DNA of 64,000 nucleotides from assembly GCA_016196035.1 (NCBI GenBank), contig JACPYM010000020.1, forward strand, positions 62,001 to 126,000. The letters run 5' to 3'. Origin of the DNA: Acidobacteriota bacterium (GTDB lineage Bacteria > Acidobacteriota > Blastocatellia > RBC074). Positions 8,907-28,783 of the stretch are shown in pieces. The position numbers were made by a program, and so were the translations under genes. The notes beneath the pieces are model-generated. The model saw nothing but the letters and a program-made list of their open reading frames with translations. It was not told the origin of the DNA and searched no databases. How positions within the stretch are numbered: position 1 is the stretch's first letter; each line of letters starts with the position of its first letter.

Positions 8907-10391
8907 CTACTGCGCAAACCGCGCCAGCACATTGCGCGTGATTTGTTGTGCGGCCTCATTCACGCGATAGGGATGTGACCACCACGCAAAATAATCGTCC
9001 AGCCCCCACGACCATTGCATGCTGCCGGTGGCGAAAACATTCGCGCCGCTGCTGTGCTGATAAAGCGCCATATCCGAAGCGCCGGGGCCGTTCTCGTCCA
9101 CCAACGGCGAATGCGCCAATTGAATCACATTGGCCGGGCTGACGCCGGGGATGTTGTAAATGCGATCCGCTTCGTAGCCGCATAAACCAGGCAGCGTGTC
9201 GCCGTTGCGCAGCCCCGTATTGGCAAAGACCCAATGGTTGGCATTGCTGATGACGATGTCGGCGTCCACTGGATAGTAAGCGTATTGCAAACCCAACAGC
9301 GCCTCTTCGGCGCGATTGACGATAGGGTCGCGCCAGGTGGTCGTGGTGTATTTGCGCTTCGTGGCGTCGTTGTAAAAGGGGTCTTGCGCATACGCGCCCT
9401 TGTAACAAACCTGCGTGCGATTGGCCGCGCCGTTGTAGCCGTTCTCCAAGCGGATTTGCCAATACGCCGCGTTTGACGTGAAAAAGCCCAGGTGCTTGCC
9501 GCCATTGCGTCCCGCTTCCAGGCGGTCGCGCATTTGCCACGACCAGTATTCATCGTGGCCGACCGAGAGAAAGGCTTTGCAATTGCTGAGTTGGTTCGCG
9601 CGCGCGTGCGTGTCAATGTTGGTGCAATAGGCCACGTCGAAACCTTCGCGTTCGAGAAAGCGCAGCATGTTCAATTCCCAGCCCGACCAGTCGTTGATCA
9701 GATCGCCCGTGCCCCAGCCGTCACTGTAGGGCCGGTTGAACGAAACCTTGTAAGCGCGCTGGTCAAAAGTGCTGTTGAAATCATAGAGCGATTTGCCGCC
9801 CCAGCCGTTGTAGGCCTGCATCGTCGTGACGCTGGATTGGAACAAATACGGCGCGACCCGCGCGTCATCGCGTACGACAAACGGGATGTAGCGTTGCGGG
9901 CCGGTGTTGGCCGTTAGTTTGGCGACATAAATCCCGCTGGCCCAGTTGGTGGCGTCGCTGGTGTTGGGGATGGTCAGCGTATACGGACTCGTCCAGCGGC
10001 ATTCGACCAAGCCCGTGCCGGCGGTGGGTGTGGGGATGTTCTGCCGCACGCCGTTGCGCGTCACGGCGTTGGTCATGCGCCGTCCGCCCGCGCCGTTGTA
10101 CCAACCCAGACGGAAGATTTCGATGGTGTACTTGCTGGCCGTGGTGTTGACGTAAAAGCTAATGCTGCCGCCGCGTGGGACGCTGTCCTTGCTGGCGTAG
10201 CCTTCGATGACATTGTGCCCGGACCAATCATCCAGCTCCCACTCGGTGGTGCCGGGTTTGTTGTTTTCCAGCGTGATGGGATTGTCGGCAACCGCGCTGG
10301 CCGCGTGGCCGCGTTGACTGGCGAGTGACAGCCCGACCAACGAAGCGGCGGAGCTTTTGAGGAATTCTTTGCGGGTAATTTTTTTGGTCAT
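8907..10391 (-). CDS. Tat-exported N,N-dimethylformamidase beta-subunit-like protein
   Basis: A 494-residue protein. It opens with a Tat-type signal (MTKKITRKEFLKSSAASLVG, then an Ala-rich AHA-like cleavage region). The rest matches the large-subunit domain of dimethylformamidase-like proteins: an N-terminal beta-sandwich (about 45-170), then a region with NGWGGKSLYDF, FDVAYCTNID and FLSVGHDEYWSW. The known family member hydrolyses formamide C-N bonds with an iron centre; the substrate here is unknown. ATG 10391 is chosen over an upstream in-frame start because it follows AGGAA and avoids overlap with the acetyltransferase gene. It is the last gene of the EPS locus, so a role in trimming an N-acyl or N-formyl decoration is conceivable but unproven. 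Confidence 0.8.
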   Translation of the reverse strand: MTKKITRKEFLKSSAASLVGLSLASQRGHAASAVADNPITLENNKPGTTEWELDDWSGHNVIEGYASKDSVPRGGSISFYVNTTASKYTIEIFRLGWYNGAGGRRMTNAVTRNGVRQNIPTPTAGTGLVECRWTSPYTLTIPNTSDATNWASGIYVAKLTANTGPQRYIPFVVRDDARVAPYLFQSSVTTMQAYNGWGGKSLYDFNSTFDQRAYKVSFNRPYSDGWGTGDLINDWSGWELNMLRFLEREGFDVAYCTNIDTHARANQLSNCKAFLSVGHDEYWSWQMRDRLEAGRNGGKHLGFFTSNAAYWQIRLENGYNGAANRTQVCYKGAYAQDPFYNDATKRKYTTTTWRDPIVNRAEEALLGLQYAYYPVDADIVISNANHWVFANTGLRNGDTLPGLCGYEADRIYNIPGVSPANVIQLAHSPLVDENGPGASDMALYQHSSGANVFATGSMQWSWGLDDYFAWWSHPYRVNEAAQQITRNVLARFAQ

Positions 10392-10405
10392 GACACTTCC
10401 TTGGT

Positions 10406-11593
10406 TTAGATGTGGTTGGGAGCAAAGCTCTGTTGGCGGCGGGCCACGCGCACGCGCTTGCGTAACGTGGCGGCCAGGGGCGCTGGGAGCGCCTGCTTGG
10501 CAAAGTCGCGGCAGCGTTGCCAAAGTTGTTCCTGGGCGAGCAAAAAGGTGGCGGCGGCGCTGCGGCGTGTGAGCGTTACGTGTACCGTCGCGCGGCTGGT
10601 GTTGGCCCAGTCGAATTTATAGCTCTCGTCGCCGCGTAAAAAGTCGTAGCGTTGCAGGCCGCGGGCACAGGCGGCTTCGATGGAAAGACCGAGCAGCACT
10701 AGCCCCGGGCTGGCGTGTTGCCAAGCCTGGTCGTAACCCGAGTTGTAGTAACAAAACTGCTTGCCATCATCCAGCCCGTAAATCGAAGCCACGCACTGGC
10801 CCGCGAGCCACAATTCTTCAAAGCGCAGCAGCCTAGTTTGAGCCAGCCGTTGCGCCAGGTCTTGATGGAAAGCGCGCAAGGCGTCGTGACCGCTGAAATC
10901 GGAACCGCCCTGCGCGGCCCAACGCGCTTCGTGCAAGACAAGGAAGCGTTCCAACGCGGCGTCAACCTCGTCTGGCCGCGTGAGCGCGCGATAAGCAAAG
11001 CCCTCGTATTTGCGCGCCTGTTTCAGCCGCCGTTTGAAATTGTCGCCACGCTTGCACTGTTTCAGCAGCGCCGGCCAATCGCCCTTCAATTCGATTTGCG
11101 GGCAGTCGTAACGCGGCTCAATGCGTTGGCGAATGTTGCCCGCTTGGGCGAAACAGTTTGTCAGGCTCACTAGCGTTGGCGAATCCGCCGCCAGCCCGTC
11201 CAGTTCCAGCAGATCGAATTGCCCGGCTTGTGAGAGATGCGCCAGGAAGGCGTCAGTTACTGCCGCCGCGTGTTCAGGCCGCACCAGCACGTCCAGGTAA
11301 TCGGCTCCGCCAAACCCCGCGCCCAGCAGCGACAATTTGCGGAGTTGGTTCGACACGCCCAGCAGCGGCAGTGTTTCAACGCCCAGTGCCAGCAAGCCCA
11401 CCAGTTTCCCCGCAGCACGTGCGCACAGCAGGTAAGGCGTGCGCGTATGGTTCAATGAATGCTGCCAAGCTGAGAGCCATTCCCACGAGAGAAAGGGCGT
11501 CATGTTTGCTGCCTGATAGAGTTCCTGCCATTCCGGGCGGAGCGTTGCAAAGGCGCTGGCATCTTCAAAGACTTCGATGGATAAGTTGTTCAT
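10406..11593 (-). CDS. CelD/BcsL-type GNAT acetyltransferase (EPS modification), second copy
   Basis: A 395-residue protein of the Acetyltransf_6 group found in cellulose and other exopolysaccharide clusters. It has a double GNAT-like fold. N-terminal features are FLSWEWLSAWQHSL (near residue 35) and LVGLLALGVE. The C-terminal half holds LAGQCVASIYGLDDG, CYYNSGYDQAW and RYDFLRGDESYKFDW. It likely transfers an acyl group to a sugar amine or hydroxyl during EPS assembly. ATG 11593 is preceded by AGGAAAT. It follows the PRODH-like gene and precedes the Tat protein by 14 bases, so the three are probably co-transcribed. It is only distantly similar to the other acetyltransferase at 12472-13641. 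Confidence 0.82.
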   Translation of the reverse strand: MNNLSIEVFEDASAFATLRPEWQELYQAANMTPFLSWEWLSAWQHSLNHTRTPYLLCARAAGKLVGLLALGVETLPLLGVSNQLRKLSLLGAGFGGADYLDVLVRPEHAAAVTDAFLAHLSQAGQFDLLELDGLAADSPTLVSLTNCFAQAGNIRQRIEPRYDCPQIELKGDWPALLKQCKRGDNFKRRLKQARKYEGFAYRALTRPDEVDAALERFLVLHEARWAAQGGSDFSGHDALRAFHQDLAQRLAQTRLLRFEELWLAGQCVASIYGLDDGKQFCYYNSGYDQAWQHASPGLVLLGLSIEAACARGLQRYDFLRGDESYKFDWANTSRATVHVTLTRRSAAATFLLAQEQLWQRCRDFAKQALPAPLAATLRKRVRVARRQQSFAPNHI

Positions 11594-11629: not shown

Positions 11630-12475
11630 CTAACTGGTTTGCAGCGCGTCACGCATCACCCACCACAAAACGCGCGGGTTCCGGCGCACTTGCGACAAGC
11701 GATAGGGCAGCCAGGCTTCGCCGTAAGGCACATACAAACGCACGGGCACGTTCAACGCGCGTGCCACTTTCAGCAGCGCCTTGCGGGGCAAGCCGTAAAG
11801 CAATTCGATTTCGCAGGGCGTGCCTGAGGCGCGCAACAATTGCACCGCTTCGCAGGCCAGAAACGGATCGTGCGTCGCAACGGCGACGTGTTGGGCACGC
11901 CCGGCCAGCCGTTCGATCACGGCCATGAAACCCGCGCGCGGATCGAGTTCAGGCTGTTGCGGGTCGGCCCATTGGCCTTTGACTACGCGCACGCGCAAGC
12001 CCAACTGGATGGCCTGCTCGGCATCCGTCAGGCTGCGTTGCCAGCGGCCCGGCAGGGTGCAACCGACTTTGGGCGTTTGTTGGCGCGCCGCCGCAATCAA
12101 CTCAAAAGTACGGTCGGCAACTTCCGGCCCCAACGCATCGAAGTGCAAACCTAGATTGAGGCGGCGGCCTTGTTCGGCCAATTCGATGACCAGTTCGTTT
12201 GAGAGACCCAGCGCGGGCGCTTTGATCGAGAGGTAACTGTTCAAGCGCTCGTCCGCCAAGACGGATAGCGCGCTCAGATAGGTGTCGGCGACAAAGCGGG
12301 GCGCGTCGTGGTCGCTGTTCCAATAGGCGATGGTGTTGCTGACGCCTTCGCGGGCGAATTGATGACAGACCCGCACGGCGCTGGCTAATTCGTCTCCGGC
12401 CACGTAAGCGCGGCTGGCGCGTTTGTTGAAGGCTTGCCAGCACGAATGCAGTTTGCTTGCGAGTGCAGTTGTCAT
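11630..12475 (-). CDS. Proline-dehydrogenase-fold protein lacking the substrate arginine pair
   Basis: 281 residues of the PRODH (PutA TIM-barrel) family. Conserved pieces are SIKAPAL (K85), HFDA (D113), RVRVVKG (161-167), VAVATHD (H202), CEIELLYG (222-229), VRLYVPYG (245-252) and WLPY (255-258). In working enzymes the helix after this Tyr carries two arginines that hold the proline carboxylate. Here the aligned positions read S261-Q262. The FAD site looks retained, so a changed substrate is more likely than loss of fold. The start ATG at 12475 overlaps the stop of the upstream acetyltransferase as ATGA, which settles it against a longer frame. It lies between two EPS acetyltransferase genes, so it probably serves EPS synthesis rather than proline catabolism. 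Confidence 0.8.
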   Translation of the reverse strand: MTTALASKLHSCWQAFNKRASRAYVAGDELASAVRVCHQFAREGVSNTIAYWNSDHDAPRFVADTYLSALSVLADERLNSYLSIKAPALGLSNELVIELAEQGRRLNLGLHFDALGPEVADRTFELIAAARQQTPKVGCTLPGRWQRSLTDAEQAIQLGLRVRVVKGQWADPQQPELDPRAGFMAVIERLAGRAQHVAVATHDPFLACEAVQLLRASGTPCEIELLYGLPRKALLKVARALNVPVRLYVPYGEAWLPYRLSQVRRNPRVLWWVMRDALQTS

Positions 12476-13641
12476 GCCGCACCTCCGGGTTTCTGTTGTG
12501 ACCGCTCCTGCCACTTTTCTTTCAGTCGTTTGAGCAGGACGCGCGCGCCATCGCTGGCCAGTTTGGCTGCGCCTGAGAGGTTGAAGGGATACGCGCGCAA
12601 GGCGACGCAGGGGCGTTCCAGCTTTGTCCATTGACTCGTCCAGGGTTCGGCGGAGCCGAGCAGTTCATAAGATTGCAGGCCGCGCGTGGCGGCATAGCGC
12701 ACGCTGTAAAGCATCAGCAAAGTGCCGGGCGAACAGCGCGCGTATTTTTCGTCGTAGCCAATCTTGAGCAGCCAGAAACGCTGGTTGTATTCCAAAGCGA
12801 ATTGCATCGCCACGGCGCGCCCATCAAGGCGCATAAAGCAGAGGCGCAGATGTCCTTGCTCGGCTGCCGCGATGGCGTAGCGGCGGTAAAACGCGCCGCG
12901 TGTGGTGTCGCGCGAAAGCGCCGTGCCCGTGGCGCCTTTCCATCCCGCGCATTCGACGGTGTATGCCTCTTCCAACAGCGGTTCCAATTCGTCCGGCGTG
13001 GGCGCGCGCATCTCGTAACTGACCGCGCCAAACTGCTCGGCGTGCCGTTGCGCGCGCCGGAAATCAGAACGGCGGCCTGCATTGAACTTCAGTTCGGGTT
13101 CGCACCAACTCGCGTCCAGCGGCAGCGACGGTGTTGGCGCTACCTCAGCGAGATGTAACCAGGCACGTCCGGCAAAGGCTTTTTGCAAGGCGGGAATGGT
13201 GGGCGAATCGGCGGGGAGACGGCCTAACCGCAGCGGCGTGCCCAGCGTCGCGAGTTGCGCGGCCAGTGTTTCCAGCGCTGGTGCATTCGCGTAAAGCAAA
13301 TCAGTCGGTTCATAAAGCTCAGCGACGCCGAGCATTTCCAAATGCTTCAACCAGCCGCCATGTTCGACCAGCGGCGCAATGGCTGACGGCGCCGCTTTGT
13401 CGCCCGTTGCGATTACGCGCAGTTTGTCGGCCGTATTAAAAGCCGCCGCGCACGCGCGCGCCCAGGCGTGGCTTTGCATCGGGCTGGCCGCGTGCCCGGC
13501 TTGTGCGGAAAGGGCCTCCCACGCCGGAGCCATTTGCGTGAGGGCTGCCACAGTTTCGCTTTCCCCGGTGGATGCTCGCACAGTTGCCTGGTCGTCGAGA
13601 TGATGTTGCAGCAGCAGGGTGTTTTGTTCAGCGAGTTGCAC
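12472..13641 (-). CDS. CelD/BcsL-type GNAT acetyltransferase (EPS modification), first copy
   Basis: A 389-residue Acetyltransf_6 family protein. Recognisable parts are SPMQSHAWARACAAAF, FNAGRRSDFRRAQRHAEQFG (the family's basic helix), VECAGWKG, LRLCFMRLDGRAVAMQFALEY and WLLKIGYDEKYARCSPGTLL. It likely acylates an EPS precursor on the cytoplasmic side. An in-frame GTG at 13701 lies inside a family A repeat and has no ribosome site. The GTG at 13641 follows AGGAC at a good distance and is preferred. Its stop overlaps the start of the PRODH-like gene, implying translational coupling. Confidence 0.82.
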   Translation of the reverse strand: MQLAEQNTLLLQHHLDDQATVRASTGESETVAALTQMAPAWEALSAQAGHAASPMQSHAWARACAAAFNTADKLRVIATGDKAAPSAIAPLVEHGGWLKHLEMLGVAELYEPTDLLYANAPALETLAAQLATLGTPLRLGRLPADSPTIPALQKAFAGRAWLHLAEVAPTPSLPLDASWCEPELKFNAGRRSDFRRAQRHAEQFGAVSYEMRAPTPDELEPLLEEAYTVECAGWKGATGTALSRDTTRGAFYRRYAIAAAEQGHLRLCFMRLDGRAVAMQFALEYNQRFWLLKIGYDEKYARCSPGTLLMLYSVRYAATRGLQSYELLGSAEPWTSQWTKLERPCVALRAYPFNLSGAAKLASDGARVLLKRLKEKWQERSQQKPGGAA

Positions 13642-13686
13642 GTGATTGTCCTCGTGTTTGAATGAGTGTCCGCAAGACGGAATCGC

Positions 13687-13859
13687 TAGATTGTTTTTCA
13701 CTTCAGTGTGCGGGAAACCCCGCAGTGCGGTACCGCGCGCATGAGCAAGCGGGTGTCAAGCTTGTGCCATTGGCCGAACCGCCAAACCTCCGCTTGCTCA
13801 CGCGCGCGGTACTGCACCGGCGCCAACTGCTTCCATAAACGCAATTGCAAACTGATCTA
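13687..13859. repeat. Family A palindromic element, copy 3
   Basis: The 173-bp element runs from TAGATTG to CTGATCTA with the inner arms GGTACCGCGCGCATGAGCAA and complement. Its right end (13857-13859, read on the minus strand) is the TAG stop codon of the GT2 gene. It fills the GT2-acetyltransferase gap, so the EPS transcript would carry this long hairpin. Confidence 0.85.
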
Positions 13860-14942
13860 ATTGGGCAGCACGACCGGGCGCGAATACGCGATTTGCAATT
13901 CGGGTTGCGCTGCATTTTGAACGGGCGGCGCTGCGAGCGTTTCAGTGTTGCTCGCGCGGTCAAGGCCCGGTTCGATGACATCGCGTGGATAAGCAGCAGG
14001 CGCGGCGAGTTGATGGACGAACAGTCCCGACAACAGTCCGAGGCCGATCAACACGTGTATGCCTACATATTCGACCGGCCCGGCGAGGCTGCGCTTTTTC
14101 AACGTCACGGCCAGCATCCAGAGGGCCAAGAGCGCGAGAAAAGGCCAGGCGTAAGTTGTCTGGCCCAACGCCAACAGCGCGAGGCCGGGACTGAGCAACA
14201 ATGTCAGCAAGCCAAAGAGCACTGTCGCGCGTTGTTGTTCGCGGCAGAATTGCCAGCCACAGCCGTATTGGCAGGCGTAACGCCACGTCAGGCCCACGCC
14301 GCTGACACGCCCCAAACGCAGGTTGCGCCACATGCCGCGCAATTGAGAGTGACCGCGCCGATGGCTGCCCATCGGGAAAGGCAGGTGCAGCAACTGCCAA
14401 TTCGCTCCGCGCAAGCGCAACGCCAGTTCGGCTTCCTCTTCAGAGCGCAAGTGCGGATTGAATGGGCCGACCTCTTCCAATGCCGTGCGCCGATAGGCGG
14501 CAATGCCGCGCAGGGTGGTGAGCGGTTTGACGACGGCGGCGCGTTCCCCGACGAAGGGGATTTCGCGGCCTTGTGCGTCGAGGTCGTTCAGGTATCCCGC
14601 CACGCCCGCGACAGACGGTTCCGCAAAAAAGGCCAGCGCGCGGCTCAGCCATTGCCGTTCGATGATGCAATCGCCATCCACAAACATCAGCAATTCACCG
14701 CTGGTGTGATGAAAGCCGATGTACCGGCCCGCTGCCGGCGTGTGCTGCCATTCCGGGCGCAAGGCCAGCACGCGCACGCCGAGCGCTTGCGCAATCTCGA
14801 CCGAGTGATCCGTGGAAGCGGAATCTACGTAAACGATTTCAGCATTGCCGATTTCCTCAGCGGCGACCAGGACGGAGCGCAAACAATCGCCCAGATGGGC
14901 CTCTTCGTTCTTTCCGATCACGACGATAGAAAACAATTTCAC
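13857..14942 (-). CDS. Family 2 glycosyltransferase with C-terminal membrane helices
   Basis: 361 residues. A GT-A domain (about 1-240) starts SIVVIGKNEEAHLGDCLRSV, with the nucleotide-sugar acidic motif LMFVDGDC near residue 90. A later RSEEEAELALRLRG matches the 'ED...LRLR' catalytic-base region of GT2. Two or three hydrophobic helices follow (LFGLLTLLLSPGLALLALG, FLALLALWMLAV, GIHVLIGLGLLSGLF), anchoring it to the inner membrane. It should extend the lipid-linked EPS repeat unit; the sugar is unknown. The stop codon TAG is provided by the adjoining family A repeat, so the last residues may differ from the ancestral C-terminus. Confidence 0.9.
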   Translation of the reverse strand: MKLFSIVVIGKNEEAHLGDCLRSVLVAAEEIGNAEIVYVDSASTDHSVEIAQALGVRVLALRPEWQHTPAAGRYIGFHHTSGELLMFVDGDCIIERQWLSRALAFFAEPSVAGVAGYLNDLDAQGREIPFVGERAAVVKPLTTLRGIAAYRRTALEEVGPFNPHLRSEEEAELALRLRGANWQLLHLPFPMGSHRRGHSQLRGMWRNLRLGRVSGVGLTWRYACQYGCGWQFCREQQRATVLFGLLTLLLSPGLALLALGQTTYAWPFLALLALWMLAVTLKKRSLAGPVEYVGIHVLIGLGLLSGLFVHQLAAPAAYPRDVIEPGLDRASNTETLAAPPVQNAAQPELQIAYSRPVVLPN

Positions 14943-15068: not shown

Positions 15069-15827
15069 TCAACGCAGCAGCCGTTGGCGCGCGACTTCGG
15101 CGAGCAGGTGCACGACGAAGGGGCTGTCTTCGACCAGATAGCGTTTGCCCAACCGGCGCGGCTCTTGCAGCATGCGATGGAACCATTCCAGGCCGTTGTT
15201 CTGCATCCATTGCGGTGCGCGCGGTTTGTCGCCCGCGATAATGTCGAGCGCCGAACCGCAGCCGATGCCGACGACCGCGCCGCATTCGCGCATGTTCTGT
15301 TTCAGCCAGCGCTCCTGTTTGGGCGCGCCCAAGGCCGCCAGCACGATCTTGGCGTTGACCGTTTTGATTTGCCGGTTCATTCCGGCCAGGGCCAGGTCAT
15401 CCAATTCAAACGGCGTCGGGATGGCGTAGACGGCGGCGGACGGAAAACGTTCGCGCATCTGGCGGGCGGCGCGTTCGGCCACGCCCGGTTCCGCGCCCAC
15501 CAGCGCGACGCTGCAACCCAAATCCGCTGAAAGCTCGGCGCATTTCCAAACCAGATCGGTGCCGTTGACGCGCCCGCGCAAGGGTGTGTCTAACAGCGAT
15601 GCCGCCCACAGAATCGGCACGCCATCGGCGGTGATCAGATCGGATTGCCACAGCTCACGCGCAAACTCGGGATTGCGTTTGGCCTTCATCACAAAATCAA
15701 TGTTGCCGGTGACGATGTGCAGCGGCTGATTTTCCAGCACCGCGCGCCGCATCAGCGCGACCGTCTCATCAAACGAGACGGCATCGAACGGGCAACCCAG
15801 TACGTCAATTCGTTTCAGTGTTTCCAT
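15069..15827 (-). CDS. WecG/TagA/CpsF family glycosyltransferase
   Basis: 252 residues of the GT26 family, which adds ManNAc, ManNAcA or glucose to a polyprenyl-linked acceptor. Signature parts are TADGVPILWA (near residue 75), RVNGTDLVWK, LGAPKQERWL and the C-terminal GLEWFHRMLQEPRRLGKRY. It acts at the cytoplasmic membrane face on the second or later sugar of the EPS unit. Start ATG 15827 is chosen because GAGGGATAACA precedes it; a longer frame to 15887 has no such site. The wza-like gene has nearly the same leader (GAGGGTAACA). Confidence 0.92.
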   Translation of the reverse strand: METLKRIDVLGCPFDAVSFDETVALMRRAVLENQPLHIVTGNIDFVMKAKRNPEFARELWQSDLITADGVPILWAASLLDTPLRGRVNGTDLVWKCAELSADLGCSVALVGAEPGVAERAARQMRERFPSAAVYAIPTPFELDDLALAGMNRQIKTVNAKIVLAALGAPKQERWLKQNMRECGAVVGIGCGSALDIIAGDKPRAPQWMQNNGLEWFHRMLQEPRRLGKRYLVEDSPFVVHLLAEVARQRLLR

Positions 15828-15904
15828 TGTTATCCCTCGAAAGTTGGGGGGGATTACAAGGAAAGAGCAGGATTGTTCATTGTTCATTTGTCAGCGCGGT
15901 TGCT

Positions 15905-16142: not shown

Positions 16143-17198
16143 TCAAACCGCCAGCCGCAAACGCGCGACGGCTTCGGAATAGTGGCCCGTCAGGCCACGG
16201 GTGGATTCTTCGCACAGACACGTTCGCCCTAGCGCCAACAGATCGCCGCCGCGCCGGTTAATACGCTTTTCGGTGGTCACGGCGAGGTCAAAGCCGAGCC
16301 GTTGCACCGCCGCTTTGACCGCCGGGCTGTAGCTGCCGTTGGGATAGGCGAAATGCGTGATCGGCATGCCCAGTTGCGTTTCCAGACTGTGCCGCGCTTC
16401 GGCGATTTCGTAATCAACGGTTTCGGGCGTTTCGAGTGTCAGCACAGGGTGATTGACCGTGTGCGCGCCGAAGCTGAGGCCGCCCGCCGCGAGTGCGCGG
16501 ATTTGTGTCCAGTCCAGCAAGCCGAAATCGCTTAGCTCCGCCGGTTCCGGTTCGCCCAAAAACAAGCGCAATTGATGCAGGATGGCTTGCCGCCGCGCCA
16601 GTGGCTGATAAATCAACCGTTCGCAAAGCTGTTGCGTGTCTACCTCGGCAGTGATCTCGACCACTTCGCGCAAATTGAAGCCGGCTTTGACCAGCGGCAC
16701 GCGCAAGCTCAATCCCAGCAACTTGGCTTGCCGCGCGAACCTGTACAGCAGATCGTGATCCAGCAGTTGATTGGCGCCGATGTAACCGGGGTTGAGAAAG
16801 ACCGTGGCGGTCAGCCCCAATTCGCGCAGCACCGGCCAAGCCTGGTCGTAAACGCTGCGGTAACCATCGTCGAAAGTGAGCACCACCGCCGGACGTGCGG
16901 TGTCGGCTTCGCCGCGCAAGACCGCGCCCGCTTCGGCTAGCGAAAGCACCTCGTAACGTTCGCGCACGAATTCCATCTGCCGCCGGAAGGTGTGCGTGGA
17001 AATCGCCATGCCGGGGATGGCCGCGCGTTCGGCGTGGGCGATGTCGGCGGCGATCTGGTGATAGCCCAGCAGCATTACTTGATTGGCGCGATGCCGGTCG
17101 CCTTCCAGCCAGCGCTGGCCCGACAGCAGCCCCGACAGCAGGGGCGCGGTCGAAGATTTGAGCGAACGGTTTTTGATTTGCCGCAATTTGGTCAGCAT
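16143..17198 (-). CDS. Polysaccharide deacetylase (carbohydrate esterase 4)
   Basis: 351 residues with a NodB-type domain. The metal-binding Asp pair is in LTFDDGYRSV (near residue 108), the metal His pair is in GAHTVNHP, and THFAYPNGSY gives the later conserved strand. It would remove N-acetyl groups from amino sugars of the polymer or precursor. There is no obvious signal peptide, though the N-terminus is basic with a short hydrophobic stretch. An exact AAGGAGG lies ten bases before ATG 17198. Its start is 16 bases from the stop of the Wzx-GT4 gene, so they are co-transcribed. A deacetylase together with acetyltransferases suggests controlled N-acylation of the EPS. Confidence 0.9.
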   Translation of the reverse strand: MLTKLRQIKNRSLKSSTAPLLSGLLSGQRWLEGDRHRANQVMLLGYHQIAADIAHAERAAIPGMAISTHTFRRQMEFVRERYEVLSLAEAGAVLRGEADTARPAVVLTFDDGYRSVYDQAWPVLRELGLTATVFLNPGYIGANQLLDHDLLYRFARQAKLLGLSLRVPLVKAGFNLREVVEITAEVDTQQLCERLIYQPLARRQAILHQLRLFLGEPEPAELSDFGLLDWTQIRALAAGGLSFGAHTVNHPVLTLETPETVDYEIAEARHSLETQLGMPITHFAYPNGSYSPAVKAAVQRLGFDLAVTTEKRINRRGGDLLALGRTCLCEESTRGLTGHYSEAVARLRLAV

Positions 17199-17214: not shown

Positions 17215-19857
17215 TCAATTTGAACTCTTTTCGATCATTGTGCCGAGCGACAACCCCGTCGCTTCGGCCTCTTGCCGCAATTCGTCGCCCAGCCGCGCCA
17301 AAACGTGTTTCAAGTCAAAGCGAGCTGCCGTCTGCAACGCGCGCGCGCCCATTGCCTGGCGCAACTCAGCCTCGCGCAGCAGTTGCGCCAGCCGCGCTGC
17401 CAATGTGCGAATGTCGCCCGGCTCGATCAGAAAACCTTCTTGGCCGTCGCGCATCAATTCCGGAATGCCGCCGACCGGCGTCGTCACGCAGGGCAGCCCC
17501 GCCGCCAGGGCTTCGATCACGGCGATGGGCATGCCTTCGGCGTAAGTGGGCAACACGAAGATGTCGGCGCGTTGGAAATAGCCGATGCGCTCAGTCAGCG
17601 CGACCGGCCCCAACTGATCTATTTGCGATGCCAGCCCGGTCGTCTGGCATAACGCGCCGATCTCGCCGCTGAGTTGTCCGAGCAAGTCCAGCCGGAAGCT
17701 CAAGCCGTATTCCGCCTTGACGATTTGCAAGGCGCGCAATAAATCCCCTTCGCCTTTCAGAAAGCCCATCTTGCCAATGAAAAGCAGACGCGGGGACGGT
17801 TGTCCGGCGAGCTGCCAGCTTGTCGAAGCGTCGTCATTGAGCCATTCGGTTTTGCCTGGAGACTTCGACAAGCTGGCAGCTTGCCGGACAACTAAATGCG
17901 TTTCCGGCGGTGCGAAGAGTTCCGTGCGCACGCCATTCGGAATGACGGTGATTTCCGCTACAGGCCAGAGTTCGCTGAGCCAACCGGCCATCTCTTGCGA
18001 CACCGCGATGAATTTCCGGCTTAACCCCAAGCCGCGCAGAATGCATTGCTTGCCAAACCATGATTGCTGGTTGAAATAAGGCGCGAAGTTGCCCGCATGA
18101 AAATGCGCCAGCACGCGCCATCCGGCCAAGCGCGCCAGTGTGATGAACACCCCTTTGCGATACAAACTGGCATTGCCGCCGACATGCACGTAAACAACAT
18201 CGGGACGCCAGCGCAGCAGGATGTAACCGAAACGCAGCAGCGCGCCGAGCATCAGCGTCAGCTTGGCGAATTTGCCGCCCTCGTCCATTTGCGAGACGAC
18301 GTGTTTGAATTCGAATTCCCGCGTGAGACTCGAACCGAGAATGTCGCTGATGAGCGTGCTGATGCCGCCCAGCGTTTTGGTGGGATGCGCGCCCAGCATC
18401 AACACACGCGGTTTGGGTTGCACTGGTTGAGCAGCGGTCAGCGCGCCGCGATTCGGCTTCAATTGCGGCCAAATCCAGGCCAAGCCGAGTAGATAACTGA
18501 TGCCGCCCAGTGCCAACGAAACACCGAAGCCCGCGTTGTAACTCAGCAAAATGACATCCAGCATCACAGCCAGCGGCCAGCGGCAAAGCCAAAACGCTTC
18601 CCAGACGCGCAACGAAAACAGCGGCACCGTGCCCCAGCGCACTTCGACCACGGCCATCGCCGTCAGCGACAGGAATTGTGCGCAAGCCGCGCCCGCCGCG
18701 CCAAAACGCGGAATCAACAGCAGGTTCGCCAGCAAATTGACGACGACTGCCACCAGATTGGCGAGCAAATCAAGGTGTTGCCGCTGGGTGGCGATCAGCC
18801 CGCGCGAGGCGATCATCACGATGCCAAACGGCACGATGCTCGCCGCCAGAAAGCCCAGCGCCAGCGATGCGCCGGCATAATTCGCGCCGAATAGCAGCAC
18901 TAGCAAATGCATGCCCAGCGTCAATCCGCCGACGGCCACCGGCAAGGCCAGCGCCAAAACTAGGCGCAAACAACTCGCCAGAAACTCGCCCAGCTTAGGC
19001 ATGGATTCTTGCGCCAGGCGCGCGGCGGTGGGCTGAATCACGCTGACGTAGCTCCACAGCAGAATCATCGCGGGCACCAGAAAGCGCGCGGCCACGGCAA
19101 AATCCGCCGCCGCCGTCTCGCCGCCCAGGCGCGCCGTCAAGACGGTGCCCAGTTGCCAATGCAACGAAGCCAGCAGCGTGACGCCCGCGAAAGTCGGCGC
19201 GGCTTTGGCGATTTCGCGGATCAAAGCTTGTTCGGGTAACGCGGGCAGGCCGAAGCGTTGCCAGGCCGCCAGGCCGTACACCATGCAAGCCGCCACGCGC
19301 ACCAAAACAAAAGAAGCGCAAATCACCGGCAAACTGTGGCCGCGATAGAGCAGCGCAAGCGGGATGATCGTGCGCAACAGATTTTCGGTCGTCGTCGCCA
19401 GCGCGATGACGCGGGCCAGGCCGAAGGCCGTGAAGACCGCTTCGCCGATGCTCACGATGCCGGTGGGGATGATGGCACTGCTCAGGATGAACGTTGCCGT
19501 TTGAGCGCTCGCGGCTTGGTTGGTGAACTGACCGGTCACCAGCATCGCCAGTGTGCAAACAATGGACGCTGCAAAAATGAGCAACGCCGCGCTGGATAAA
19601 AAGCGCCGCCGGTCTGGCCGCCGCGCCAATTCACTGGCCAGATAGGGCGTCAGGCCCAAACCGCACACGGTGATGAAAATGGTGTAGAGGCTCATCACCG
19701 TGGCGAATTGGCCGACTTCGGCGGTGGTGCGCCAGCGGGCCAGCGCCATCCACAACACGACGCTGTTGGCGATGTTGATCGCGCCCGACCACGCCATCCA
19801 CAGCGTGTTGCGCAAGATCGAAGTACCTGGCCCGGTTTTCAGCATTGCCGCGTTCAA
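17215..19857 (-). CDS. Fused Wzx-type flippase and family 4 glycosyltransferase
   Basis: One 880-residue frame. Residues about 10-465 are a MOP/MATE-like polysaccharide flippase with 12-14 hydrophobic helices (start ILRNTLWMAWSGAINIANSV). A short linker follows (LKPNRGALTAAQPVQPKPR). Residues about 483-870 are a GT4 transferase: LGGISTLISD near the N-terminus, VIPNGVRTELF, and the donor-site EGMPIAVIE (E-x7-E). Residues about 656-686, between VIPNGV...and LLFIGKMG, come from a family C repeat inserted in frame. The TTG start at 19857 overlaps the wzy-like stop (TTGA) and has AGGAG eight bases upstream. It would both add a sugar and export the lipid-linked unit. The join could be checked for assembly error, but the frame is clean. 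Confidence 0.88.
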   Translation of the reverse strand: MNAAMLKTGPGTSILRNTLWMAWSGAINIANSVVLWMALARWRTTAEVGQFATVMSLYTIFITVCGLGLTPYLASELARRPDRRRFLSSAALLIFAASIVCTLAMLVTGQFTNQAASAQTATFILSSAIIPTGIVSIGEAVFTAFGLARVIALATTTENLLRTIIPLALLYRGHSLPVICASFVLVRVAACMVYGLAAWQRFGLPALPEQALIREIAKAAPTFAGVTLLASLHWQLGTVLTARLGGETAAADFAVAARFLVPAMILLWSYVSVIQPTAARLAQESMPKLGEFLASCLRLVLALALPVAVGGLTLGMHLLVLLFGANYAGASLALGFLAASIVPFGIVMIASRGLIATQRQHLDLLANLVAVVVNLLANLLLIPRFGAAGAACAQFLSLTAMAVVEVRWGTVPLFSLRVWEAFWLCRWPLAVMLDVILLSYNAGFGVSLALGGISYLLGLAWIWPQLKPNRGALTAAQPVQPKPRVLMLGAHPTKTLGGISTLISDILGSSLTREFEFKHVVSQMDEGGKFAKLTLMLGALLRFGYILLRWRPDVVYVHVGGNASLYRKGVFITLARLAGWRVLAHFHAGNFAPYFNQQSWFGKQCILRGLGLSRKFIAVSQEMAGWLSELWPVAEITVIPNGVRTELFAPPETHLVVRQAASLSKSPGKTEWLNDDASTSWQLAGQPSPRLLFIGKMGFLKGEGDLLRALQIVKAEYGLSFRLDLLGQLSGEIGALCQTTGLASQIDQLGPVALTERIGYFQRADIFVLPTYAEGMPIAVIEALAAGLPCVTTPVGGIPELMRDGQEGFLIEPGDIRTLAARLAQLLREAELRQAMGARALQTAARFDLKHVLARLGDELRQEAEATGLSLGTMIEKSSN
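17800..17891. repeat. Family C palindrome inside the Wzx-GT4 coding sequence
   Basis: Arms 17800-17828 and 17863-17891 pair at 28 of 29 positions (TTGTCCGGCGAGCTGCCAGC left) around 34 bases. On the minus strand it encodes VVRQAASLSKSPG... and ...STSWQLAGQPSPR, a segment foreign to GT4 proteins. A full copy lies at 22953-23048 and a half copy ends the rel gene. Confidence 0.85.
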
Positions 19858-21398
19858 TAGTTCAACTCCTGTGCGTGCGCATAAATGTCGTGGCGGTGAA
19901 TACGGCCCAGCGCCAGCAACAATCCGCAGCAGAAAAAGCAGACGCGGAATTGTGGCGTCCCCAGCGAACCAAGCTCTTTCAATCCAGTGACCAGATAGGC
20001 CAGCACGCCACAGATCAAACCGATGGCGAGGGCTTGCACCAAACGGTCTTGGCTGCGCAGCACTTGCCAGCCTTGATACAGCGCCAGTGCGAGCAGCAAC
20101 AGAAAGAACGCCAAGCCGGGCAAGCCCGCTTCGGCGGCGGTGTGCAAAAAGATGTTGTGCACGGGCCAGGGGAAATCTTCGGTGATGCGGTCGGGCGTGT
20201 GATCGTAGCGGCGCATCTCGGCTTCGTAATTCGACAGCCCCACGCCCAGCAGCGGATTGGCTTCGATCATGGTCTGGGCGACTTGCGAGAGCGGCACGCG
20301 CGAATAGGCCGAGCCGTTATCGTCTTCGGTCAAGCGGATGACGATGGGGGCGAGGAAGGGCAGGCACAGCGTGCAACCCAACAGCACCATCATCGCAATC
20401 TGTTTGCCAAAGCGTTGGCGTTCAACCGTGGGCAACACGCGATAAGAGAGCGCCAGCAGCAGCGCGAACGCCAGCGCAAAAGCAATCCAACTGCCGCGCG
20501 CATACGTCAGCAGCAAGGCCAGCAAGCCAGCAGCGGTCGCCAGCGCCAGACCGCGCCGTTCCCACCGGCTGAAAGCGCGCACGCGCAAAATCAGCACGGC
20601 CAGCAGCGTGGGCAGCAGCGTGACCAGAAACCAGGCGAACGAATTCGCCATGCCTTGCAAACCGGTGGCGCGCGCGATTTCGCCGTCGCCGAACGACTGG
20701 CGGTTTTCTTCTTTGGCCGCGCCGAGCCAGGTCAAATCGGTCAACGCGCCGGTCGTGGCTTGCAGTGTGCCGATGACGCCATTCACGCCGACGATCAGGG
20801 CGATGACCAGCACGACCGTGCGCAAACGATCACGTTGGCCGAATTCGTTGGCGACCGCAAAGGTGAACAGCAAGCACGACGCCAGCGACCACCAGGCATA
20901 AAACGCCAGCAGCTTTTCGGTGCCGGCCAGGATGCCGAGCGCGCACCAGAGCAAAAGTGCAAAGGCGCTGAAACTGAACGAGACGGGGAAGACCGCTGCC
21001 GCCGGTTGGTCGCGCCAGCGCGCCAGCCCATGCGCCAACACCAACGCGATGCTGGTCAGCAGCATTAACGAGACGTTCAAGCCGGGCAGCCCTTCGTTGT
21101 ATTTGAAGAGCGGGAAAAGATTGATCTCCAGGCGAAAGGCCAAGCAGGCGAGCAGCAGGACGCGCAAGATCGGCACGATGGGCCAGCTTGCCGCCGCCCA
21201 CGCCAACACGCCCAACAAGCCGCCAACGGTGATGAACACACCCGCCAGTGTTTTGATCGGCAGTCCGCCAAAAGATGCCAGCACGGCTCCGAAAAACAGC
21301 GCTGTTGCAATCATCATCAGGGGCGCAAGCCAGCGCACCGTCGGCCCGCTAGAGTGATTAGCGCGGTTGCCGTTAAATCTTTGGGTAAATTCCTGCAT
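19854..21398 (-). CDS. O-antigen ligase/polymerase family protein (Wzy-like)
   Basis: A 514-residue membrane protein with about 12 helices. The Wzy_C/WaaL region is shown by LLLTYARGSWIAFALAFAL and by the periplasmic loop NPLLGVGLSNYEAEM... HNIFLHTAAEAGLPGL, where the H near VHNIFL is the family's conserved residue. It should polymerise undecaprenyl-linked repeat units in the periplasm. The ATG at 21398 has no clear ribosome site: a family B repeat ends nine bases upstream, so initiation may depend on it or on coupling. Its stop overlaps the Wzx-GT4 start. Confidence 0.88.
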   Translation of the reverse strand: MQEFTQRFNGNRANHSSGPTVRWLAPLMMIATALFFGAVLASFGGLPIKTLAGVFITVGGLLGVLAWAAASWPIVPILRVLLLACLAFRLEINLFPLFKYNEGLPGLNVSLMLLTSIALVLAHGLARWRDQPAAAVFPVSFSFSAFALLLWCALGILAGTEKLLAFYAWWSLASCLLFTFAVANEFGQRDRLRTVVLVIALIVGVNGVIGTLQATTGALTDLTWLGAAKEENRQSFGDGEIARATGLQGMANSFAWFLVTLLPTLLAVLILRVRAFSRWERRGLALATAAGLLALLLTYARGSWIAFALAFALLLALSYRVLPTVERQRFGKQIAMMVLLGCTLCLPFLAPIVIRLTEDDNGSAYSRVPLSQVAQTMIEANPLLGVGLSNYEAEMRRYDHTPDRITEDFPWPVHNIFLHTAAEAGLPGLAFFLLLLALALYQGWQVLRSQDRLVQALAIGLICGVLAYLVTGLKELGSLGTPQFRVCFFCCGLLLALGRIHRHDIYAHAQELNY

Positions 21399-21514: not shown

Positions 21515-22948
21515 TCACATCGCGCCCGTGCCGCGCAACACGGCGGGGATCGTTTGCAACAGCAATTTCACGTCGAGCCAGAGCGACCAGTTGTCTATAT
21601 ATTCGAGGTCTTGTTTGATCCAGTGGTCGAAGCTGGTGTTGCTGCGCCCGGAAACCTGCCAGATGCAGGTGATGCCCGGTTTGACGCTGAAGCGCCGGTT
21701 GAACCAATAGGCATCGAAGCGTTCGTAATCGCGCACCGGCAACGGACGCGGTCCGACCAGCGACAGTTCGCCGCGCAGCACGTTGAGCAGTTGCGGCAAT
21801 TCGTCGAGACTGGTCTTGCGCAGAAAGTGGCCCAGCGGCGTGATGCGCGGATCGCGGCGCATTTTGAAGACCGGCCCGCCCGCTTCGTTAAACTGTTCGA
21901 GTTCCTTTTGCAGCGCCTCGGCGTTGGTGACCATCGTGCGAAATTTGAACATCGGGAAGCGTTGTTTGTTCAAGCCCAGCCGTTCCTGCACAAACAGCGC
22001 CGGGCCTTTGGAAGTCAGCCGGATGAGCGCCGCAACCAAGAGCAAAATGGGCGACGTCAGAATGAGCAGCGTTGCCGCGCCGAGCACATCCAGCCCGCGT
22101 TTACAGACGGCGCGCCAATCGGGCGGCGGCGCGGTGAACAGCGTCAGCACTGGGATGTCGTCCAGTTGCTCAGCGCGCGCGCGCGCCAGCTTGGGGCTGA
22201 ACAATTCAGCGTGCACCCGCACGACGATGCCTTGCTCTTCGGCCAGCGCGATGATGTCGTGGATTTCGGTGTAATAGCTTTTGACCGGCAGCGCGAGCAT
22301 GACTTCATCCACAATCTGTTCGGCCAGGATGGCGGCGAATTGATCGAGCTTGCCGATCACGCCGGGCGCTTTTTGATCGTCAATGAAACCCAGCAGGTGA
22401 TAGCCGAGTTCGGGATGCCGGTTGATGACTTCGGCCATGCGTTGACCGCGCGGCCCCGCGCCGACGATCAGCACGTGATGCAGATTGCGTTCGCGCAGCC
22501 GCACCTCACGCAGCACGAAACGTTTGAGCAGCCGGAAGGAAAACAATCCCAGCGAAGCCGTCAGCCAGAACACGGCCAACAATGCGCCATCCAGCCATTC
22601 CCAATGCAACAGATGTGAGAACGCCGAGAGCGTTAACGCGCACAACCCGACCGCGCGCATGACATCCAGCAGGTCTTGATGCCAGCGCGTCAAACGGCGG
22701 CTGCCATACAGCGGCAGGGAAGAGAGGCATACATTCCAACCGGCCCACAGCAGGATGAGCACCGTCAGCGCGCCCAGATCAAATTGCGCCGGCAGGGCCG
22801 CAACCGGCTGCTGCCAGACCAGCAAGGTGGTCAGCGCTAATGCGCCAGTGAGAATGGCCAGATCGAAGAGCTTCTGGGTAACCGAGAGTGAAGACCATTT
22901 GAATTGCGTCACGGGTAGTGTCTCCTCAAAGAATCCAGGGCTATTCAT
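21515..22948 (-). CDS. EPS polyprenyl glycosylphosphotransferase (initiating sugar transferase)
   Basis: 477 residues. Four N-terminal helices (about 15-130) precede a CoA-binding-like Rossmann domain (LIVGAGPRGQRMAEVI, residue about 150). The catalytic Bac_transf domain spans the last 200 residues: KRGLDVLGAA, LFVQERLGLNKQRFPMFKFR, a Lys/Arg-Thr-Ser-LDELPQL helix, SLVGPRPLP and KPGITCIWQVSGR. It transfers hexose-1-phosphate to undecaprenyl phosphate, starting the repeat unit. ATG 22948 (MNSPGFFEE) is preferred. The longer frame to 23029 consists of family C repeat sequence. The ribosome site is weak because the repeat abuts the start. Confidence 0.92.
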   Translation of the reverse strand: MNSPGFFEETLPVTQFKWSSLSVTQKLFDLAILTGALALTTLLVWQQPVAALPAQFDLGALTVLILLWAGWNVCLSSLPLYGSRRLTRWHQDLLDVMRAVGLCALTLSAFSHLLHWEWLDGALLAVFWLTASLGLFSFRLLKRFVLREVRLRERNLHHVLIVGAGPRGQRMAEVINRHPELGYHLLGFIDDQKAPGVIGKLDQFAAILAEQIVDEVMLALPVKSYYTEIHDIIALAEEQGIVVRVHAELFSPKLARARAEQLDDIPVLTLFTAPPPDWRAVCKRGLDVLGAATLLILTSPILLLVAALIRLTSKGPALFVQERLGLNKQRFPMFKFRTMVTNAEALQKELEQFNEAGGPVFKMRRDPRITPLGHFLRKTSLDELPQLLNVLRGELSLVGPRPLPVRDYERFDAYWFNRRFSVKPGITCIWQVSGRSNTSFDHWIKQDLEYIDNWSLWLDVKLLLQTIPAVLRGTGAM

Positions 22949-22952
22949 GCTC

Positions 22953-23048
22953 GAAAGTGTCCGACAAGCTGCCAGCTTGTCGAAGTCTCGGCTCGCGCAC
23001 CAGTGGGTAGACTGCCACGCCCGCGACAAGCTGGCAGCTTGTCGGACA
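22953..23048. repeat. Family C palindromic element, intergenic copy
   Basis: Arms 22958-22982 and 23024-23048 are exact 25-bp complements (TGTCCGACAAGCTGCCAGCT left). It lies directly upstream of the glycosylphosphotransferase start. Its plus-strand frame ESVRQAASLSKS equals the peptide found in the Wzx-GT4 insert (VRQAASLSKS) and resembles the end of Rel (ESVRQAAG). Confidence 0.85.
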
Positions 23049-23115: not shown

Positions 23116-24759
23116 TCAAGCGCTCGTTTTGCCGGAGCGTTGCCGTTGCAGCTTGTGTCGCATGAAGGTCAGCGATCTGACGTTCGCCACGGCTGCCGGC
23201 AGGTGGTTTGAACGATGCCGGGCCGGGGCGGGCGCTTCGGCCAGCAACTGCCATTCGCGTTTTTGCAAGCGTGCGAGCGCCAGCGCGAGTTGACCTTGCG
23301 GGACAGGCGCCAAGGCTTGGCTCACGGGTGCGTGGCGCGTGAAGCGGTGGCGTTCGAGCGTAAGCACCGTGGCGAGGCCCGCCAGCAAGCCGACGACGGC
23401 CAGCACGGCGACATTCAGCAATGGTTTCGGACTGATCGCTTTGTGATTGAGCGTGGCCGGTTGCGCCAGACTGATGTTGGCGATCTGGGCCTGATTCATC
23501 ACATTCGAGATTTCCGCCTCTTGCGCTTTTTTGTTGTAGAGCAAATAGGCCTCTTCCCGAATCGTGCGATTGCGCTCCAGTTCCGTGCGTTCCAGGCTTT
23601 TGACATCAAAGGTGGCGATTTGCGCCTGATACTGTTTGGTCAAGGCGGCCAGACGCTGCTCGCGTTCGTTGAGCGCGGCCAGATTGCTTTGCGCGCCCAG
23701 CAGGTCGGTGGTCAGGTGGCGATGGATTTCGTTGGGCATCGTCGCCTTTTCCTGGGGCGGCGTTTGCTCTTCGCGGGCCAACAAGGTGCGGGCCTGGGCG
23801 AGGCGCTCTTCGACATCTTTCACCAGCCGATGCGTGGGCTGGTATTTCTGCCGCAATTGGGTGGATTGCATTTCGAGCGCGAGGATTTCGTCTTTGATGC
23901 GGTCGCGCGCGCCGGTGTATTTGGTGCGCACTTCGGATTCGATCCGTTCCGGCGTGACCGTCAGTTGCTCTTTTAGCGTTGTCAGGCGTTGCTGGGTTTC
24001 AAGCTTTTCGGTGCGTGTTGCATTGAGTTGCTGCTGCAACTGAAAAAATTGTTGCAGCAGCAACTCCCGCTGAGCTGGGCTGCCAGCGAACCCATTGGCC
24101 AGATCGAAGCGTTTGAGCGCTTCGGTGGCCTCGTTTAATTTCTGATTGAACTCGGTGCTTTGGTTGCGAAAGACGGCGGCGGCTTTCTCATCCTGATTCA
24201 GGCGCAAATGATGCTCGGCATATTTTTGATAGAGCGTCTGCAACACCTGGGCGGCGCGTTCCGGCGTTTCGTCCTGATAACTGACTTGCAGGATGCGCGA
24301 TTTCTTGATGGGTACGGCCTCCAGGCTTTCGCTCATGCGCGTGACTACTTGTTCGAACTGGGAAGCGGGCGCTTGTTTATGCAAAGAGCGATACCACTCG
24401 CCCATTCTGCTGGCCGGGGCGGCTTCACCATCGGGTTGGCCCCAGCCCAGTTGTTGCGCGGTGGCTTCGAGCACGGCGCGGCTTTGCAGGATTTCGAGTT
24501 CGGAGTTGAAATCCTCTTCGGTCAATTCGCCGCGCATCATGTCATTGGTCTTGTCTGAAGAACTGACCTGCGGGTCGAGCCGGTTGCGCGTGATCAAAAT
24601 CTTCATCGTGGATTGATAGCTTGGTTTCATCCGTAAGGTCACGAGCGTGCCCGCGCCGACGACGGCAGCGAAAATGGCGAACAGCAACACTTGCCGCGCC
24701 AGCAAAATGCGCCCGATGTCGGTGATGGTGATGGGCATGTTCAGGGGCCGTTCATTCAT
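23116..24759 (-). CDS. Wzz/GumC-type polysaccharide chain-length determinant
   Basis: A 547-residue inner-membrane protein. It has an N-terminal helix (LLFAIFAAVVGAGTLVTL, residues 24-42), a long periplasmic coiled-coil region (about 180-400, rich in Gln, Leu and Glu), the pre-membrane motif ATLNHKAISPKPLLN and a second helix (VAVLAVVGLLAGLATVL, about 450-470). A basic cytoplasmic tail of about 75 residues follows, without Walker motifs, so no tyrosine kinase is fused. It sets EPS chain length and couples polymerisation to export. No separate kinase or phosphatase gene is in the locus. Confidence 0.9.
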   Translation of the reverse strand: MNERPLNMPITITDIGRILLARQVLLFAIFAAVVGAGTLVTLRMKPSYQSTMKILITRNRLDPQVSSSDKTNDMMRGELTEEDFNSELEILQSRAVLEATAQQLGWGQPDGEAAPASRMGEWYRSLHKQAPASQFEQVVTRMSESLEAVPIKKSRILQVSYQDETPERAAQVLQTLYQKYAEHHLRLNQDEKAAAVFRNQSTEFNQKLNEATEALKRFDLANGFAGSPAQRELLLQQFFQLQQQLNATRTEKLETQQRLTTLKEQLTVTPERIESEVRTKYTGARDRIKDEILALEMQSTQLRQKYQPTHRLVKDVEERLAQARTLLAREEQTPPQEKATMPNEIHRHLTTDLLGAQSNLAALNEREQRLAALTKQYQAQIATFDVKSLERTELERNRTIREEAYLLYNKKAQEAEISNVMNQAQIANISLAQPATLNHKAISPKPLLNVAVLAVVGLLAGLATVLTLERHRFTRHAPVSQALAPVPQGQLALALARLQKREWQLLAEAPAPARHRSNHLPAAVANVRSLTFMRHKLQRQRSGKTSA

Positions 24760-25209: not shown

Positions 25210-25977
25210 TTAATACAGCAGGTTCGCGGCGGGAAGCACCGAGCGGAACGCATCCATCACCCGGGCAATCTTCGTGAGCTTTGAATCCGGCACGAAGATG
25301 TAATCGCCATCCTGCAACTGTAAGTCATAAGCTTTCTTGGTATCTGAAATCATCGTCAGGGCATCGTGTTGCGTGACGCGCAACTTGCCGTCGCCCGTGG
25401 GCCGCGCGTGCAGCACCAAGCGGCGATTGGCGTCATTGGTGAAGCCGCCCGCCAGCATGACGGCTTGCAGCAGCGTTTGCCCCGAGCGCAATTCAAAGCT
25501 ACCAGCTTTTTGCACCTGACCACCGACAAAGACGTGCGCCATTTGGAATTCGATCAGATTGACTGAGATGAGCGGGTTGACCAGCACTTCGCTATACGCT
25601 TTTTCGAGTCTCTGTTTGACTTGCGGCACGGTCTGGCCGCCCACCCGCACCTCGCCAATTGTCGCCAGCGTGATGTAACCATCCGGGCGGACAACCAACG
25701 AAGGCTCATCCAATTCGGTGTGATAGGGAAACTTGATGCTCAGCTTGTCGCCGCTGCGGATCAAATACGATTCATCCGTTTGCGTAGCGGCTTTGCGTTC
25801 GAGCATTTTCTGCGCGATGACTGGGACTGCGGCGACCAAGGCGATCAATTCCACGCAAAACCAGGCACGCACGAGATGTTTTTTCAGCGGGGTACGATGG
25901 GAGTTCGCTGGCACGGAATGGTTGCGGCGTTGTGTCAGCTTGAAATTATTGAAGAAGAGCTTGTTTCCGTTCACCAT
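25210..25977 (-). CDS. Polysaccharide export protein (Wza-like, Poly_export/SLBB)
   Basis: 255 residues. A basic N-terminus and one hydrophobic helix (FCVELIALVAAVPVIA) act as signal or anchor. A Poly_export domain follows (YLIRSGDKLSIKFPYHTELDEPSLVVRPDGYITL). An SLBB domain reads VFVGGQVQKAGSFELRSGQT LLQAVMLAGG (two adjoining pieces). It forms or gates the outer-membrane EPS channel. No lipobox is visible, unlike E. coli Wza. ATG 25977 follows GAGGG; an in-frame extension to 26052 is not needed. It is the first gene of the minus-strand EPS locus, so the promoter should lie in 25978-26403. Confidence 0.9.
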   Translation of the reverse strand: MVNGNKLFFNNFKLTQRRNHSVPANSHRTPLKKHLVRAWFCVELIALVAAVPVIAQKMLERKAATQTDESYLIRSGDKLSIKFPYHTELDEPSLVVRPDGYITLATIGEVRVGGQTVPQVKQRLEKAYSEVLVNPLISVNLIEFQMAHVFVGGQVQKAGSFELRSGQTLLQAVMLAGGFTNDANRRLVLHARPTGDGKLRVTQHDALTMISDTKKAYDLQLQDGDYIFVPDSKLTKIARVMDAFRSVLPAANLLY

Positions 25978-26070
25978 TGTTACCCTCACCATAATGCTCG
26001 TGGAGTAAACGGGCCGTCCCTGTCCACCTCGCCGATCACCGTTCCAGTTCAATCTGTTTGGGTGGTTTCG

Positions 26071-28635: not shown

Positions 28636-28783
28636 GCTTCATCCCCGCCGGCATTCAATGAAATGCCCGGAAGTTTGTTACCACCGCAGGCTGCCCCTCC
28701 GGCTGCATTGCATCCTATTTCAAAATTCAGGTTCAAAACTGTGGCAAACGAATGCTTTGCCATTCTCAAGAGGAGATTCCTGC

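Follow-up and report, generated by a model that had tools for sequence, protein, structure and literature searches.

The residues with which proline dehydrogenase (PRODH; EC 1.5.5.2) holds its substrate and its flavin have been described for the PRODH domain of PutA and for the monofunctional enzyme of Thermus thermophilus (TtProDH). In PutA, the carboxylate of proline is held by Arg555 and Arg556, and Lys329 has been put forward as the base that acts on the amine of the substrate (PMC10651016). Asp370, Tyr540, and Leu513 take part in substrate binding and Arg431 and Glu559 in FAD binding (PMC3718742); the contacts to FAD comprise Gln404, Arg431, Lys434, Ala436, His487, Arg555, and Arg556 (PMC10647483). 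In TtProDH, which accepts FMN besides FAD, the flavin phosphates are touched by Thr226, His227, and Lys187 (PMC5335563). We have analyzed a gene whose product resembles these enzymes and lacks the Arg pair. It lies in the window (the whole stretch of Acidobacteriota DNA that we analyzed, 64,000 nucleotides):

11630..12475, minus strand: protein of the PRODH fold, 281 amino acids, that lacks the carboxylate-binding Arg pair (ORF, family profiles, alignments, model, and tree)

The ORF runs from an ATG at 12475 to a stop codon that ends at 11630 (281 codons). Its product scores barely above the cut-off of the Pfam Pro_dh family (PF01619; 28.1 bits against 27), and the NCBIfam model of Thermus proline dehydrogenase (NF045947) covers residues 17-278 with 77.6 bits, missing the equivalog cut-off of 500. 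A phmmer search of the PDB aligned residues 20-276 with T. thermophilus PRODH (2ekg; E 2.2e-16). The AlphaFold2 model had a pTM of 0.79 and a pLDDT of 79.8, its quality being limited by a small input of three sequences (window, L003, L004), and pLDDT was below 50 for residues 256-281, the helix that carries the S-Q site discussed below. Foldseek placed the PRODHs of Deinococcus radiodurans and T. thermophilus first (E about 1e-13), and the top matches in a VIA superposition were all PRODHs (Z 25). Together with the Pro_dh score, these matches bear out the PRODH fold proposed in the first-pass annotation, and the predicted TIM barrel of the PRODH type is a safe assignment. The landmarks that had been listed are also all present: K85 in LSIK, D113, R163-VVKG, AVATHD (T201-H202-D203), Y248-VPYG, and Y258-R-L-S261-Q262. 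The same genome encodes a separate, normal monofunctional PRODH (at C34, with the motif FMRRLAERP), and so proline catabolism does not depend on the window protein.

The site at which the Arg pair would be expected lies in helix 8:

11687..11704, minus strand: codons 258-263, Y-R-L-S-Q-V, where ordinary PRODHs have Y-x-x-R-R-x (coordinates computed from the ATG at 12475)

In the phmmer alignment, helix 8 of the window protein (YPYLTRRIAERP) and of 2ekg (LPYRLSQVRRNP) pair without a gap, and a profile of the nine relatives has the identical register. The TtProDH stretch is numbered 288-RRIAERP (PMC5335563), so that Arg288-Arg289 correspond to Ser261-Gln262 in this gap-free alignment. The spacing of Tyr258 and Pro267 on either side of the site is unchanged; a register slip would therefore require compensating indels, and it is this register, set by the two residues in the sequence, on which the proposed geometry of the S-Q site rests. 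The same anchors led us to reject a slip that would move Arg264/265 to this position, a point on which superposition was indecisive in a helix with a pLDDT below 50. The loss of the Arg pair, first suggested from the sequence, is thus upheld, and the case for it is stronger than first stated, Ser261-Gln262 being aligned without gaps between two fixed residues. We also checked whether an Arg pair returns to the active site, and the sequence alignment puts none there.

We scanned genomes as well as the assembly that contains the window and obtained eight relatives with 40–57% identity to the window protein. Those from Acidobacteriota are an additional copy from the window's genome (G000-C28), one from the same family (G001), and G187, G295, G343, and L004; those from Planctomycetota are L003 and G510 (L029). 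A phylum scan built around the genome of L004 recovered the same loci, which assigns the window to the phylum of L004. The nine proteins are 37–69% identical to each other. In a tree a single fully supported branch (SH-aLRT 100%) sets them apart, and its stem, 3.04 changes per site long, attaches to monofunctional PRODHs. Because the nine form one clade, the loss of the Arg pair was one ancient event and not nine. The clade is rare, occurring in 4 of 396 sampled Acidobacteriota genomes and 2 of 392 sampled Planctomycetota genomes (both phylum scans are samples), and a peptide-pattern scan of genome contigs yielded just two relatives. The viral contigs searched contained no relatives, and the plasmid matches listed had at most 28% identity and were mostly annotated as proline dehydrogenases. 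A limited literature search, which is weak evidence, turned up no account of a PRODH clade lacking the Arg pair or of a GNAT-PRODH pair; this small branch is apparently undescribed.

To compare the active sites, we aligned the nine clade members with 65 ordinary PRODHs from the two phyla, most of them found via the Pfam family, and used E. coli PutA numbering. The Arg555-Arg556 pair is present in 65 of 65 ordinary PRODHs and in none of the nine, a difference that is not due to chance. Arg555 is replaced by Ser or Ala in every clade member and Arg556 by Gln or His in eight; the remaining member, a fusion protein, keeps an Arg at the second position (A-R). The S-Q signature, for which a survey of homologues had been suggested, holds in seven of the nine, and the other two read A-H and A-R. 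Glu559, also in helix 8, is kept by all 65 ordinary PRODHs and by no clade member (R265 in the window protein). Gln404, present in 64 of 64 ordinary PRODHs, is Pro throughout the clade (Pro142 in the window protein); Ala436 is Gln in eight members and Gly in one; Tyr437 is Trp or Phe in all nine; and about ten residues are missing from the loop after VVKG. The Glu of the LGE motif in strand 1 is likewise lost from all nine. In PRODHs, this Glu and the first Arg of the pair form an ion-pair gate. A review describes a gate of this kind with helix 8 and does not give the residues (PMC13155685). If these two residues do form the gate, both of its partners have been lost together.

The rest of the site is intact. 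Lys329 (K85), Asp370 (D113), Arg431 (R163), Lys434 (K166), His487 (H202), Leu513 (L226), Tyr540 (Y248), and Tyr552 (Y258) are retained by all nine proteins, and the flavin-phosphate contacts of TtProDH (Thr226, His227, and Lys187) correspond to T201-H202 and K166, of which the His and the Lys are invariant. The losses are thus coordinated: they affect the carboxylate side, the probable gate, and some of the flavin contacts, whereas the base, the ring contacts, and the flavin-phosphate contacts do not vary among sequences that are 37–69% identical. Judged by these residues, the carboxylate end is remodelled and not decayed; nothing catalytic decays. Given the changes at Gln404, Arg555, and Arg556 and the shortened VVKG loop, the clade may bind flavin differently or no longer bind it. 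The residue change across the whole clade argues for the new substrate that the first-pass annotation had put forward.

The PRODH-like gene has a constant partner, GNAT1, which in one planctomycete is part of the same polypeptide:

12472..13701, minus strand: GNAT1, Acetyltransf_6 protein, 409 amino acids, the constant partner, overlapping the PRODH-like gene by 4 nt
L029:328-2337, plus strand: natural GNAT1-PRODH-like fusion of a planctomycete, with A-R at the Arg-pair site

In the window, GNAT1 overlaps the start of the PRODH-like gene by 4 nt (ATGA), in agreement with the proposed translational coupling to an acetyltransferase. GNAT1 lies directly upstream of the PRODH-like gene at eight of the nine loci and is fused to it at the ninth (G510), where one ORF of 669 residues encodes both the Acetyltransf_6 domain (197-340) and the Pro_dh domain (582-652). 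The ATGA overlap is found at six loci (the window, G000-C28, G001, G187, G295, and L004); the junction is a 10-nt overlap in L003 and a 5-nt gap in G343. In a phylum scan of 392 genomes with GNAT1, every match with at least 45% identity belonged to a GNAT1-PRODH-like pair, and more distant matches (31–34%) had no PRODH-like neighbor in the loci read. The divergences of GNAT1 and the PRODH-like protein are correlated (r 0.85), a result that we dropped as evidence of interaction because joint inheritance and plain species relatedness both fit it.

The structural model of GNAT1 is poor (mean pLDDT 54.7). Its best matches were A-PGS, FemX, and MprF, at a TM of about 0.45, and Sbb17; these tandem GNATs, which depend on aminoacyl-tRNA, came before acetyltransferases, and the GNAT1 sequence had no match among solved structures. 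The model weakly suggests a Fem-like tandem-GNAT transferase. The distant GNAT1 matches (34% identity or less) that we checked have a family 4 glycosyltransferase on one side and an aminotransferase of the DegT type on the other: the relatives in L038, L042, L043, and L044 adjoin a DegT/DnrJ/EryC1-type aminotransferase in a recurrent gene set, and a family 4 glycosyltransferase also stands beside those in L038 and L042. These neighborhoods again point to amine chemistry on sugars.

In two genomes the next gene after the pair, with the same orientation, encodes a 960–970 amino acid protein with phosphoribosyltransferase and C-terminal HAD-IIB phosphatase domains, which has no relative within the window:

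L023:4388-7300 and L024:4579-7467, minus strand: phosphoribosyltransferase/HAD-IIB protein, 65% identical to each other

In L024 its start and the stop of the PRODH-like gene overlap.

The pair in the window lies in a polysaccharide locus, all of it on the minus strand:

10406..11593, minus strand: GNAT2, second Acetyltransf_6 protein, 395 amino acids; its orthologue adjoins GNAT1 in G001
13857..14942, minus strand: family 2 glycosyltransferase, syntenic in G001 (55%)
15069..15887, minus strand: WecG/TagA/CpsF glycosyltransferase, syntenic in G001 (60%)
16143..17198, minus strand: protein with a polysaccharide deacetylase domain, syntenic in G001 (43%)
17215..19857, minus strand: glycosyltransferase with a fused flippase-like domain, syntenic in G001 (45%)
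19854..21398, minus strand: Wzy/O-antigen ligase-like polymerase, syntenic in G001 (49%)
21515..23029, minus strand: initiating bacterial sugar transferase (Bac_transf)
23116..24759, minus strand: Wzz/GNVR chain length protein
25210..26052, minus strand: polysaccharide export (Poly_export/SLBB) protein

The order of transcription is export protein, Wzz, initiating sugar transferase, Wzy, flippase-glycosyltransferase, deacetylase, WecG, family 2 glycosyltransferase, GNAT1, PRODH-like protein, and GNAT2. GNAT2 starts 36 nt downstream of the PRODH-like gene and is the second acetyltransferase that had been noticed there. In G001, which belongs to a second genus, eight genes of the window locus are found in a single locus with 43–60% identity, and the order is GNAT2, GNAT1, PRODH-like. 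The context is looser in G187, G295, and G343, where the neighbors include a family 2 glycosyltransferase, an acyltransferase of the Acyl_transf_3 family, and a sugar transferase of the initiating type, and in G000-C28, L003, L004, and G510 the pair lies outside polysaccharide clusters in the DNA read. The description of the PRODH-like protein as an EPS protein is therefore right in part. The window and G001 loci are clear polysaccharide clusters, and three further loci have the looser context, but with four of nine pairs elsewhere we rejected it as a defining trait. The invariant trait of the clade is the GNAT1 partner and not the EPS context; EPS modification is nevertheless the likely role of the window pair.

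Three further observations concern the surroundings of the pairs. The second pair of the window's own genome (L021, G000:C28) has STAND-type ATPases on one side and a BNR-repeat protein on the other. The last gene in the direction of the EPS operon (window 8907-10523, minus strand) encodes a DMFA2_C protein, similar to the beta subunit of N,N-dimethylformamidase, with a signal-like leader and an internal start near 10391; it is apparently exported. At 28601-35044 (plus strand), directly after a RelA/SpoT gene, the window encodes a 2147 amino acid protein with NHL/teneurin-like propeller repeats.

We give an even chance to the proposal that the PRODH-like protein is a PRODH-type flavoenzyme that acts, together with its tandem-GNAT (Fem-like) partner, on an amine without a free carboxylate. 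The substrate would be an amine because the Lys base is retained, and it would not be a free amino acid because the carboxylate clamp is lost. The protein would be a flavin-dependent oxidoreductase in which the amine-activating and flavin-phosphate end is kept and the carboxylate-gripping end rebuilt, and it would oxidize (or, in reverse, reduce) a C-N bond in a substrate that either has no carboxylate or has it masked as an amide or ester. The translationally coupled GNAT partner would handle the same molecule, either attaching an acyl or aminoacyl group or taking the molecule over, and the window pair would probably decorate the repeating sugar unit of an exopolysaccharide of the Wzx/Wzy type. 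What we infer here is that flavin is bound, what kind of substrate is used, that the two proteins share a reaction, and that the polysaccharide is the target. The main rival, which we consider unlikely, is a pseudoenzyme: a non-catalytic PRODH-fold protein that serves the GNAT partner as a folding, allosteric, or scaffolding subunit. The loss of the carboxylate clamp, Glu559, Gln404, and the loop residues, the very long stem branch, and a partner that is constant and even fused all agree with such a role, but in a pure scaffold one would not expect invariance of the catalytic Lys and Asp, the ring-contact Tyr and Leu, and the flavin-phosphate residues at 37–69% identity.

The flavoenzyme proposal also has a specific form, in our view distinctly unlikely, in which the Fem-like GNAT tethers an aminoacyl group through its carboxylate to a sugar, lipid, or protein and the PRODH-like enzyme dehydrogenates the tethered amine; such a substrate would therefore have no free carboxylate to bind. 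That the group might be prolyl is a guess. Precisely the carboxylate-binding residues are lost and the amine- and ring-contact residues kept, and the GNAT1 model resembles aminoacyl-tRNA-dependent transferases; however, that model is weak, the use of aminoacyl-tRNA or proline by GNAT1 is conjectural, and the change of Ala436 to Gln alters the ring pocket. It is just as doubtful that a two-component system (single-chain in one planctomycete), with a carboxylate-blind PRODH acting on an aminoacyl group that a Fem-like GNAT has attached to a carrier linked to sugar or lipid, yields a cyclic imine or related modification, and we know of no such modification in bacterial polysaccharides. Characterized PRODHs are dehydrogenases and no electron-donor feature was identified, which makes it quite improbable that the protein is instead a reductase whose reduced flavin converts an imine or enamine to an amine for acylation by the GNAT, even though the distant GNAT1 relatives adjoin DegT-type aminotransferases, which supply amines. 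We think it least probable that the protein is an ordinary proline or hydroxyproline dehydrogenase that holds the carboxylate otherwise, for example with Arg264/Arg265 one helical turn later. The window protein does have RR at 264-265, and the low confidence of the model over residues 256-281 leaves room for a slip, but Y258 and P267 fix the register, the 264/265 pair is not conserved (LR, RQ, QS, and RK in other members), and the genome has a normal PRODH.

If the clade consists of active flavoenzymes of the kind that we propose, PRODH chemistry would extend past free amino acids, and flavin redox would be coupled to an acyl- or aminoacyl-transfer step. The Arg pair is invariant among the ordinary PRODHs examined, and the clade can thus be regarded as a natural experiment in the re-purposing of a much-studied flavoenzyme fold; the label "proline dehydrogenase", when given from a family match alone, is probably wrong for such proteins.

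The closest known systems are the monofunctional PRODHs of Thermus and Deinococcus (2ekg, 2g37, 4h6q; NF045947), with which the window protein shares the full-length TIM-barrel fold at 22–26% identity. It keeps their catalytic Lys and Asp, Arg184, Lys187, His227, the Leu, and two Tyr residues. In contrast, Arg288-Arg289 have become Ser-Gln, Glu292 has become Arg, the Gln of LQSY has become Pro, the Glu of LGE is lost, KGAY reads KGQW, and the loop after VKG is about ten residues shorter. With the PRODH domain of PutA it shares the fold and the catalytic Lys329 and Asp370; unlike PutA, it has neither a P5C dehydrogenase domain nor Arg555, Arg556, and Glu559. GNAT1, for its part, has an Acetyltransf_6 C-terminal domain like the tandem-GNAT aminoacyl transferases of the Fem/MprF type, which its low-confidence model also resembles.
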